From Vulcanimicrobiota bacterium (GTDB lineage: Bacteria > Vulcanimicrobiota > Vulcanimicrobiia > Eremiobacterales > Eremiobacteraceae): 64,000 nt of DNA. Position numbers and translations under genes: made by a program. The DNA lies in NCBI GenBank assembly GCA_013290125.1, contig JABCYQ010000004.1, forward strand, positions 62,001-126,000, read 5' to 3'. Below, in pieces: positions 9,490 to 32,783 of this stretch; the stretch's first letter is position 1, and each line of letters starts with the position of its first letter. The notes below the pieces were generated by a model. That model was not told where the DNA came from and did not search any database. It saw only the letters and a program-made list of their open reading frames with translations.

Positions 9490-9687
9490 ATGAGCACATA
9501 CACGTGGTCGGCTTCGTGCCAGCGCCGTGACGCGTTGCTGGCCGAGGCCGAATCCGGGCGGCTTGCGCTGCTTGCAGTTCACTCGGGCAATCCCGCGCGC
9601 CGTCGCATCGCCGCTTGGCTCGTGGAGTTCGGCTACTTCGTCGTCGGCGCCGGAATTCGCCTCGACCGGCTCCGGACGATGGATTGA
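9490..9687 (+). CDS. Small protein of the TYTWSA family (65 aa)
   Basis: The protein starts MSTYTWSA and ends in an amphipathic or weakly hydrophobic segment (IAAWLVEFGYFVVGAGIRLD). It is clearly homologous to the product at 27011-27241: shared residues include TYTWSA, RDAL, AEA-SGRLA, PARRRIA-WLV, GYFV-GAG-RLDR. Two diverged copies with conserved frame in one window argue that it is a real gene. The ATG at 9490 follows GGGGAAA. Palindromic elements lie on both sides (A upstream, B downstream). I do not recognise a function; a membrane-surface helix is plausible. Confidence 0.72.
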   Translation: MSTYTWSASCQRRDALLAEAESGRLALLAVHSGNPARRRIAAWLVEFGYFVVGAGIRLDRLRTMD

Positions 9688-9699
9688 AGGGGACTCATC

Positions 9700-9728
9700 G
9701 AAGGGGCCGACATAAAGTCGGCCCCTTC
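9700..9728. repeat. Palindromic element B (single long hairpin)
   Basis: GAAGGGGCCGAC (9700-9711), loop ATAAA, GTCGGCCCCTTC (9717-9728): one 12-bp perfect stem, equivalent to a left arm fused to a right arm. It lies 12 bases after the stop of the 65-aa gene, between it and the convergent Nudix gene, and could terminate transcription from both sides, although no long T run follows. Its last bases start the tandem repeat that follows. Confidence 0.88.
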
Positions 9729-9836
9729 AGTATGTCCGTGCCCCTTCAGTATGTCCGTGCCCCTTCAGTATGTCCGTGCCCCTTCAGTATGTCCGTGCCC
9801 CCTTCAGTATATCCGTACCCCTTCAATACGTCCGTT
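9722..9836. repeat. 19-bp minisatellite derived from the palindrome tail (6 units)
   Basis: Units CCCCTTCAGTATGTCCGTG at 9722, 9741, 9760 and 9779 are identical. A fifth unit (9798-9817) has one inserted C and two changes, and the sixth (9818-9836) is more diverged. The unit starts with the CCCCTTCAG end of palindrome B, so the array grew from the element's edge. It abuts the stop codon of the Nudix gene, and the last unit overlaps it. Confidence 0.92.
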
Positions 9837-26931: not shown

Positions 26932-26965
26932 GAAGGAACGCGATTTTATTCGGCCGCGTCCCTTC
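26932..26965 (-). terminator. Probable terminator of the 76-aa TYTWSA gene
   Basis: Imperfect stem GAAGGAACGCG (26932-26942) and CGCGTCCCTTC (26955-26965) with a 12-base AT-rich loop. In RNA read on the minus strand the central mismatch becomes a G-U pair. TTCATTATT follows. It lies 46 bases after the stop of the gene at 27011-27241. Confidence 0.6.
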
Positions 26966-27010
26966 TCATGTGTCGTGCATCGAACATCACCGCCCTCTCT
27001 AATCTTGCGG

Positions 27011-27241
27011 TCATGGCACCGGATGCAGTCGTGCGCCCGGCTTTGGCTGCGCGTGGCGTCCGCGATCGAGCCGCATTCCGGCGCCGATGACGAAGTAGCC
27101 GATCTTCACGAGCCATCCGGCGATGCGTCGACGCGCGGGATAACCCCGGCGACGTGCAAGCCGAGCAAGCCGGCCCGAATCCGCTTCTGCCATGAGCGCG
27201 TCTCGATGCTGGCGCGCAGCCGACCACGTGTATGTGTGCAT
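27011..27241 (-). CDS. Second TYTWSA-family small protein (76 aa)
   Basis: Starts MHTYTWSA and is homologous to the 65-aa product at 9490-9687 across about 58 residues (HRDALMAEADSGRLA, YPARRRIAGWLVKIGYFVIG, AGMRLDRG), then carries a basic extra tail ending GARLHPVP. A very strong GGAGGGAG lies a few bases ahead of the ATG. The C-terminal half could be a membrane-surface amphipathic helix. Its expression appears to pass through a roughly 300-base structured leader with an internal terminator. Function is unknown; the regulated expression is the main clue. Confidence 0.75.
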   Translation of the reverse strand: MHTYTWSAARQHRDALMAEADSGRLARLARRRGYPARRRIAGWLVKIGYFVIGAGMRLDRGRHAQPKPGARLHPVP

Positions 27242-27310
27242 GTGAACTCCCTCCTTTCAATGTTTAACTAGAGCTTGCGTCGCGCGTTTGCGAACACAGC
27301 GGTATAAAAT

Positions 27311-27339
27311 GAAGAGACCTCCGCTTTTGCGGAGGCCTC
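27311..27339 (-). terminator. Terminator hairpin inside the leader
   Basis: CCTCCGC (27318-27324), loop TTTT on the plus strand, GCGGAGG (27329-27335), extended by GAG/CTC outside a mismatch. In minus-strand reading, TCTCTTCATTTTATA follows. Its position between the leader and the strong ribosome site of the 76-aa gene suits conditional termination. Confidence 0.72.
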
Positions 27340-27377
27340 GACTCTAGTTGACGATCCCCGGCTCGCGGCCGGTTTGA

Positions 27378-27512
27378 TCATGCTCGATAGAGTCGACGCT
27401 CCCCGCGAGGCGCTCCAGCGCCTTCGCTGACAAGCCGGCGCGCTGCAACAGTCGGAATCACGGCGAGGCCGTGGTTTCCGCTGGTGCATTTCCGCGTCGT
27501 GGTCATCGGCAT
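27378..27512 (-). CDS. Possible 44-aa leader peptide
   Basis: Inside the structured leader, ATG 27512 follows GGAGG by 12 bases and opens a 44-codon frame (MPMTTTRKCTSGNHG...RRLYRA). Seven of its codons are Arg. The frame spans most leader stems and stops at the base of the CCGGC/GCCGG hairpin, so ribosome position could decide which stem forms. There is no homology signal, and it may be chance within GC-rich structure. Confidence 0.3.
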   Translation of the reverse strand: MPMTTTRKCTSGNHGLAVIPTVAARRLVSEGAGAPRGERRLYRA

Positions 27513-27551
27513 AGTGTATCGTTTCCTCCGCTTGTCAAGAAGGTTCACGAA

Positions 27552-27581
27552 ATACTACCACGCGCGCACTGCGGGTGTCAA
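27552..27581 (-). promoter_or_regulatory. Sigma70-like promoter of the leader
   Basis: On the minus strand TTGACA (27576-27581), an 18-base spacer, then TAGTAT (27552-27557). A start of transcription is expected near 27545. A second TTGACA at 27533-27538 lacks a convincing -10 at the right distance and lies in a pairing arm instead. Confidence 0.65.
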
Positions 27582-27594
27582 TGCTCGATCGACG

Positions 27595-27619
27595 GAAGGG
27601 GCCGACTTTATGTCGGCCC
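27595..27619. repeat. Palindromic element H (lone left arm)
   Basis: GAAGGGGCCGAC (27595-27606), loop TTTAT, GTCGGCCC (27612-27619), then an A-rich run. It lies 20 bases ahead of the endonuclease III-like gene and just upstream of the divergent leader promoter, so it could insulate the two. Confidence 0.85.
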
Positions 27620-27638
27620 AAGAAAAAAGTTGTATTCA

Positions 27639-30944: not shown

Positions 30945-32783
30945 GTGCGGGGCGGCCAAGCCGGCGAATCGAAGCGCGCGAGCATGCTCGGCTCCAGTCC
31001 ATTCGCGATCCTGCACTCGCGATCGTACGATCCAAAAGACAAGAAATCGCGCCCGCACGTAGACTTGCGTCGCGTCGCACGCTACTTCGCGCCGTACCTT
31101 CGCGAGGAATCGCTGGCGCTGGTCTGCATCCTCGCGTCGGGCGCGCTCGGACTGCTGCCGCCGCTGTTCACGCTGCGCATTATCGACAGCGCGATCCCGC
31201 ATCACGACATGACGGAGCTTCTGTTCGACGTCGGCGGGATGGTGGCAAGCGCGCTGGCCTCGGCCGCCATCGGAGCCGGGCAAGGGTATCTCAACGCCAT
31301 CGTGGGCGAGGGCATCATGCGCGATATGCGCGACGCGCTCGTGAGCCATCTGCATCGCATGCCGCTGTCGTTCTTCACCTCCACCAAGACCGGCGAGATC
31401 ATGAACCGCGTCTCGAGCGATGTCGATGCGATCGACAACGTCGTGACCGGCACGCTCGCCTCGATCGTGCAGAACGTGGTCTGGATTCTGACGACCGCCG
31501 TCGCGATCTTCATCTTGGACTGGCGGCTCGCGCTGCTCTCGCTCGTCGTCATCCCGATCATGATCGTGCCGCTCGATCCGGTCGGCACGCGCATGTATAC
31601 GGTCCGCAAGCAGACCCGCGAACAGCGCGACGTCATCGAGAGCCTCATCCAAGAGACGTTGTCGCTCTCCGGCATCACCTTGATCAAATCGTTCGTGCGG
31701 GAGAAACGCGAGGCGAAGCGCTTCCACGACGCCGGCACGAAGTTGATGAAGCTCGAGATCAACCTGGCGATGGTCGGCCGCTGGTTTCTCGCGATCGTGA
31801 TGGCGCTGCTCGTCATCGGCCCGGCGATGATCTGGTTGGGCGGCGGCTTCCTTGCCGTGCGCGGCGTGATGACCATCGGCGTGATCGTCGCGTTCGTGCA
31901 GTACCTCGCGCGCTTGTATGGCCCGGCGTCCGCGCTTGTGGGCGTGCAAGTACAAGTGGTCAGCGCGTTCGCCGTCTTCGAGCGGATCTTCGCCTACCTC
32001 GACATGACGCCGGAAGTGCCGCGCTCGCCAAGCGCGATCGACTTGGGCCTTGCCAAGGGGACGATCGATTTCGAGGCGGTGCGATTCAGCTACGCGCCAG
32101 AACGCGTCGTGCTCGATGGTGTGACGCTGCACGTCCGCCCCGGCCAGCTCGTCGCACTCGTCGGCCCGAGCGGCGCGGGAAAGACGACGATCGCAAATCT
32201 CGTGCCGCGTTTTTACGATCCGCAGGAAGGCAGCGTGCGCGTGGACGGTCACGACGTCCGCGACTTGGAGTTGGAGAGCCTGCGGCGCAACATCGGCATC
32301 GTGACGCAAGAGACGTTTCTCTTCCATACTACGATCGCCGAGAATCTGCGCTACGGCAAACCAGATGCGAGCCTCGACGAGCTTCAAGCCGCATGCAGGG
32401 CTGCGAACATCGACGCGTTCATCTCGACGCTGCCGGACACGTACGAAACAGTCGTGGGCGAACGCGGCCACAAGCTTTCCGGCGGCGAACGACAGCGGTT
32501 GGCCATCGCTCGCGTCTTGCTCAAGGACCCGCGTATCTTGATCCTCGACGAGGCGACGAGCTCGCTCGATTCCACGTCCGAATCGTTGATCCAAGACGCG
32601 CTGGTGCCGCTGATGCGAGGGAGGACAAGCCTCGTCGTCGCGCACCGCTTGTCCACAGTCTTGCGCGCCGACGTCATCTACGTGATCGATCGCGGTCGCG
32701 TCGTGGAAGCGGGCACACACGGCGAGCTCATCGCTCGCGGCGCGGCGTACGCGGCGCTCTATGCCGCCCAATTCCGTGAATGA
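30945..32783 (+). CDS. ABC transporter, fused membrane and ATPase domains (MsbA/exporter-like)
   Basis: 612 aa half-transporter. Six membrane helices (first YFAPYLREESLALVCILASG, with GEIMNRVSSDVDAIDN in the first coupling region) precede an ATPase domain. This domain has Walker A GPSGAGKTT, Q-loop GIVTQETFLF, signature LSGGERQRLAIARVLL, Walker B ILILDEATSSLD and H-loop VAHRLST. It would act as a homodimer exporting lipids, drugs or other amphiphiles. GTG 30945 follows GCAGG; ATG 30984 is an alternative start. The next gene begins 10 bases downstream, possibly co-transcribed. Confidence 0.93.
   Translation: MRGGQAGESKRASMLGSSPFAILHSRSYDPKDKKSRPHVDLRRVARYFAPYLREESLALVCILASGALGLLPPLFTLRIIDSAIPHHDMTELLFDVGGMVASALASAAIGAGQGYLNAIVGEGIMRDMRDALVSHLHRMPLSFFTSTKTGEIMNRVSSDVDAIDNVVTGTLASIVQNVVWILTTAVAIFILDWRLALLSLVVIPIMIVPLDPVGTRMYTVRKQTREQRDVIESLIQETLSLSGITLIKSFVREKREAKRFHDAGTKLMKLEINLAMVGRWFLAIVMALLVIGPAMIWLGGGFLAVRGVMTIGVIVAFVQYLARLYGPASALVGVQVQVVSAFAVFERIFAYLDMTPEVPRSPSAIDLGLAKGTIDFEAVRFSYAPERVVLDGVTLHVRPGQLVALVGPSGAGKTTIANLVPRFYDPQEGSVRVDGHDVRDLELESLRRNIGIVTQETFLFHTTIAENLRYGKPDASLDELQAACRAANIDAFISTLPDTYETVVGERGHKLSGGERQRLAIARVLLKDPRILILDEATSSLDSTSESLIQDALVPLMRGRTSLVVAHRLSTVLRADVIYVIDRGRVVEAGTHGELIARGAAYAALYAAQFRE

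Follow-up and report, generated by a model that had tools for sequence, protein, structure and literature searches.

The window (the whole stretch of DNA that was analysed, 64,000 nucleotides) carries on its minus strand, in this order, a promoter, a structured leader of about 300 nt with an upstream open reading frame (uORF), an intrinsic terminator, a strong Shine-Dalgarno sequence (SD) and a 76-codon gene. We read the leader as a transcription attenuator that is switched by translation of the 44-codon uORF, and put the probability of this reading at about 0.85. The parts, their order, their geometry in 42 homologous loci and the locus-specific complementarity within them were shown computationally. 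Class-wide conservation of this layout was seen in Candidatus Eremiobacterota, an uncultured group for which no report of attenuation was found in the literature searched.

The leader and its relatives

A sequence-only reading of this DNA had described a near-consensus promoter, a structured leader, a terminator and a very strong ribosome site ahead of a 76-aa gene, and each of these was borne out (Table 1). The promoter call is weak taken alone, because about 0.7 matches with a 10/12 score are expected by chance per 1.7 kb; a promoter stands at the equivalent position in the 42 homologous loci, and we place the transcription start at about 27545. The leader folds with -129.7 kcal/mol (z -5.7; 0 of 100 shuffles equally low), and its terminator has the sequence GAGGCCTCCGC-AAAA-GCGGAGGTCTC followed by TTCATTTTA. 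The uORF, which has its own SD and occupies the leader, had been overlooked. The leader is present once in its own genome, gave no match in Rfam at gathering or relaxed thresholds, and matched no class among the Rfam riboswitch and T-box covariance models. No phage match was seen.

Table 1. Features of the attenuator locus (positions in the window)
Feature	Position	Strand	Remark
Sigma-70 promoter, TTGACA-18 nt-TAGTAT, TG before -10	27552-27581	-	10/12 match; kept in 42/42 loci
SD GGAGG of uORF	27525-27529	-	
uORF, 44 codons + TGA, MPMTTTRKCTSGNHGLAVIPTVAARRLVSEGAGAPRGERRLYRA	27378-27512	-	ATG at 27512, TGA at 27380-27378
Local hairpin GGCGC-TGGA-GCGCC	27409-27422	-	in uORF, directly 5' of antiterminator arm
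Antiterminator 5' arm, CGCGGGGAGCGTCGACTCTAT	27387-27407	-	within uORF
Apex hairpin CCGGC-CGCGA-GCCGG	27358-27372	-	in antiterminator loop
Antiterminator 3' arm, CTAGAGTCGAGGCCTCCGC	27329-27347	-	overlaps terminator 5' arm
Intrinsic terminator, tail TTCATTTTAT	27304-27339	-	stem 27339-27314
SD of small gene, AAAGGAGG	27250-27257	-	
Gene of 76-aa arginine-rich protein	27011-27241	-	regulated gene
Terminator-like hairpin	26938-26968	-	3' of small gene

Nucleotide search against 61 relatives returned a full match in one genome of the same genus only, and fragments in another, so a protein profile was needed to find relatives. Loci were collected by using the small protein as bait (profiles A1 and A2), which gave 42 loci from 23 genera and two families of Candidatus Eremiobacterota. 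All 42 have a promoter, an SD with a uORF, an intrinsic terminator and then the gene; the uORFs span 24-46 codons with their stop 20-39 nt ahead of the terminator stem, and the distance from terminator to gene is 26-136 nt throughout. Layout limits, which were fixed but derived from the same data, were passed by 40 of 42 leaders versus 0.2 of 42 expected from dinucleotide shuffles. The sequence-only reading had made its case depend on conservation in relatives, and both layout and complementarity are kept in the 42 loci. The T-run of the terminator often almost touches the SD of the gene (e.g. L118), which leaves no space for another promoter, so the gene relies on read-through. A terminator 3' of the small gene was found in 3 of 38 loci only.

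The closest genome (G001) shares 87% identity over the leader, with the ORF intact, and has a perfect apex hairpin CGAGCC-TAAG-GGCTCG in place of the one in the window. For a third species of the genus (G002) only short stretches could be aligned, yet promoter, 44-codon ORF, terminator and gene are all present. A covariance model built on 12 core leaders recovered six non-training leaders at the correct sites (G027, G109, G105, G102, G114 and G088), and found three extra leaders that the protein search had missed (G046, G021 and G036), in every case ahead of a member of this gene family. Its weak matches, on examination, were mostly ordinary terminators, and one HMM match (L248 in G118) was a false positive in which the leader is absent.

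Several features of the surroundings were recorded along the way. The small gene stands in two tandem copies behind a single attenuator at two loci (L225 in G013, L224 in G012). At three loci (G003:C12, G007:C4 and G009:C7) the element adjoins a homologue of the ABC transporter encoded at 30945-32783 of the window, and the neighbourhood is thus partly conserved. Many f2 leaders, judged by eye, adjoin an apparent opposite-strand tRNA gene 100-250 nt before the leader promoter (L234, L235, L236, L238, L239, L244, L245, L246 and others).

Pairing between the uORF and the terminator

The mutually exclusive hairpins that had been claimed for the leader were recovered as an antiterminator and a terminator. 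The last ~10 codons of the uORF (27407-27387) pair with 27347-27329, overlapping the 5' arm of the terminator, and the uORF stop lies within the antiterminator loop. In the window leader the antiterminator including its apex reaches -43.9 kcal/mol versus -21.3 kcal/mol for the terminator hairpin. Arm sequences differ by locus (GTGTGCGGGG with CCCCGCACAC in G005; GGTGGAGGTTTC with GAAGCCTCCGCC in G009), and pairing was therefore compared between own and swapped arms across the 42 loci: own arms gave -29.8 kcal/mol and swapped arms -23.7 kcal/mol (z -11.1; 0 of 20,000 permutations). The signal was also obtained by subset (f1, z -6.1; f2 core, z -4.6; genus g12, z -4.15; one locus per genus, z -8.7), and no such signal came from the opening 45 nt of the uORF, used as a control (z +2.3). 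The choice between terminator and antiterminator is thus conserved through locus-specific complementarity.

RNA truncated where the 5' arm of the terminator ends adopted the antiterminator fold in 35 of 42 loci, with own pairs covering 0.72 of the arm versus 0.51 for swapped pairs (0 of 20,000). When 26 nt at the uORF stop were masked to mimic a ribosome, the terminator folded in 41 of 42 loci. With the ribosome further upstream and the full terminator present, the equilibrium was poised (antiterminator in 20 loci, terminator in 22), and in the window leader with everything present the terminator state was slightly ahead; the model consequently requires kinetic precedence, with the antiterminator forming first. 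The local hairpin directly 5' of the antiterminator arm could act as a pause site or as an anti-antiterminator. A GGGTC/GGACC hairpin overlaps the antiterminator arm in a 12-locus f2 subset; the swap test for a conserved anti-antiterminator gave z of about 0.4 and did not support one.

Judged by sequence comparison, the uORF is conserved as a reading frame and not as a peptide. Its pN/pS is 0.5-1.0 in most groups versus 0.18-0.60 for the small gene (a value of 2.0 came from one pair with only seven differences), and a search with the uORF peptide returned the closest genome only, plus noise. Because the peptides are barely conserved, the case for translation of the uORF, which we infer, consists of its SD, frame and geometry. 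The leader is taken up by a uORF that looks translated, which suggests that the sensor is the ribosome. Since the frame is kept without the peptide and no single-residue runs are shared, the position of the ribosome is favoured as the signal, ahead of a specific peptide causing arrest or one particular amino acid.

Proposed switch, known systems and rival explanations

In the proposed mechanism, transcription would begin near 27545 and a ribosome would trail RNA polymerase through the uORF. On reaching the uORF stop it would cover ~26 nt and hide the last codons, so that the antiterminator would be blocked, the terminator would fold and an RNA of ~235 nt would be released. With the ribosome stalled upstream, or with none loaded, the antiterminator would form first and polymerase would continue into the 76-aa gene. 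Full translation would thus terminate, and slowed translation or too few ribosomes would read through; by analogy with the systems below, the trigger may be general translation stress or ribosome shortage and not one amino acid.

The loci share two features of uORF-dependent attenuators, an intrinsic terminator preceded by a uORF that has a ribosome binding site (42 of 42 loci) and antiterminator pairing between uORF and terminator 5' arm (in the swap tests). The proposed mechanism is of the known whiB7/wblC and ilvB1 type, and the regulator family is new. At whiB7/wblC of Actinobacteria, translation of the uORF favours a Rho-independent terminator and disturbed translation leads to the antiterminator and read-through, and the use of a uORF-controlled terminator/antiterminator with an intrinsic terminator is the same (PMC11550727); the target there is a WhiB-type transcription factor, whereas here it is an arginine-rich protein without a Pfam match in 18 members. 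At ilvB1 of M. tuberculosis a ribosome at the uORF stop masks ~26 nt, which blocks the antiterminator so that the terminator forms, and the geometry of uORF stop, antiterminator and terminator is equal to ours, but ilvB1 has LVVI regulatory codons and controls branched-chain amino acid synthesis (PMC13236596), and no comparable run of codons occurs here. The duf1127-1 gene of Sinorhizobium meliloti, which is induced by tetracycline and chloramphenicol, likewise has a short uORF ~30 nt past the transcription start (in a leader of ~280 nt), an arginine-rich small target, attenuation by translation state and a uORF-containing sRNA (PMC12218461). It differs in lacking an intrinsic terminator (termination is presumably by Rho), whereas a strong one is present at all loci here, and in having its attenuation element at the uORF start (PMC12218461). 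With vmlR of Bacillus subtilis the locus shares the uORF, an apex hairpin on the antiterminator and the intrinsic terminator; vmlR encodes an ABCF resistance factor and has a 3-codon uORF inside an anti-antiterminator, an element that is unsupported here (PMC9226507).

An attenuator of the his/trp/ilv type, in which the ribosome would halt at uORF control codons for want of one amino acid, would use identical terminator/antiterminator/uORF logic. The 5' parts of the uORFs are enriched in Thr (11.0% versus 5.8% expected), Asn (6.4 versus 1.7), Met and Ile, with MTTT in the window and TT in many loci. However, the Thr and Asn enrichment is only modest, no run of one amino acid was found to be shared among the uORFs, two loci have no Thr in the 5' part, and enrichment of codons starting with A is equally expected from an unstructured, well-initiated start; the regulated gene, moreover, is not a biosynthesis enzyme, and we consider this explanation unlikely. 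It is very unlikely that the locus holds two adjacent small genes, a functional 44-aa protein with its own terminator and a 76-aa gene living on unregulated read-through: uORF length and a core GLAVIP are common to the window and the other two species of the genus, but uORF length ranges from 24 to 46 codons over all loci, and the peptides evolve almost freely while the uORF end stays complementary to its own terminator.

The sequence-only reading had left the choice between riboswitch and attenuator open, and the complementarity in 42 loci strongly supports the attenuator. A ligand-binding riboswitch, with the ribosome uninvolved and the ORF accidental, would account for the strong folding of the leader and for the terminator/antiterminator expression platform. 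Against it stand the lack of an Rfam match or a visible conserved aptamer core, leaders that are unlike outside the pairing arms, and an SD, ORF and fixed stop distance in 40 of 42 leaders where 0.2 are expected, so that we regard it as highly improbable. We give equally little credit to a stand-alone trans-acting sRNA of ~235 nt, which had been offered earlier as an alternative. Promoter and terminator do bound such an RNA, but it always precedes the same gene family (45 loci), has no constant seed region, and is expected instead as the terminated transcript of the attenuator, terminated leaders yielding such RNAs anyway, as at duf1127-1 (PMC12218461).

The attenuator reading would connect an unnamed family of arginine-rich small proteins with the cell's translation state, a parallel to actinobacterial whiB7 and rhizobial DUF1127, and this link would be the first testable hint at the purpose of these proteins. 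Partner-swap tests are able to detect attenuators that lack sequence conservation and are missed by Rfam.

The small protein family

The family comprises arginine-rich proteins of 49-76 aa. With a cut-off of E ≤ 0.01, 48 of 149 genomes from the phylum gave a match, a small number of the weak ones being doubtful; beyond the phylum, no convincing match was obtained in 14 genomes. Pfam gave no match in 18 family members, NCBIfam gave none in the members tested, and no significant relative was found among solved structures. Homology to DUF1127 was considered and rejected, with no match to the small protein, including in a search of its own genome. An AlphaFold2 model shows two helices, and the protein is probably of two-helix form on this prediction; with pLDDT 68 and pTM 0.30 the model is too weak to support a fold search. 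We tentatively suggest, as a conjecture that may well fail, that the small protein is a class-wide effector of translation stress, a new ribosome or RNA factor that would be made only when ribosomes slow or run short and that would be guarded by the attenuator in many Eremiobacterota of the two families.

A paralogue of the 76-aa gene lies at 9491-9688 of the window on the plus strand (71% identity over 63 aa) and is without the promoter-uORF-terminator leader. It sits between REP-like repeats, 3' of a VOC-family-like gene, and the same arrangement is found in the closest genome (L099). A tandem repeat of ~20 bp (ccccttcagtatgtccgtg) follows directly after the paralogue at 9712-9830, and a REP-like palindrome (TTGGGCCGACATAAAGTCGGCCCCTTC), with ~55 copies in the genome, several of them as close inverted pairs, lies at 27587-27620.
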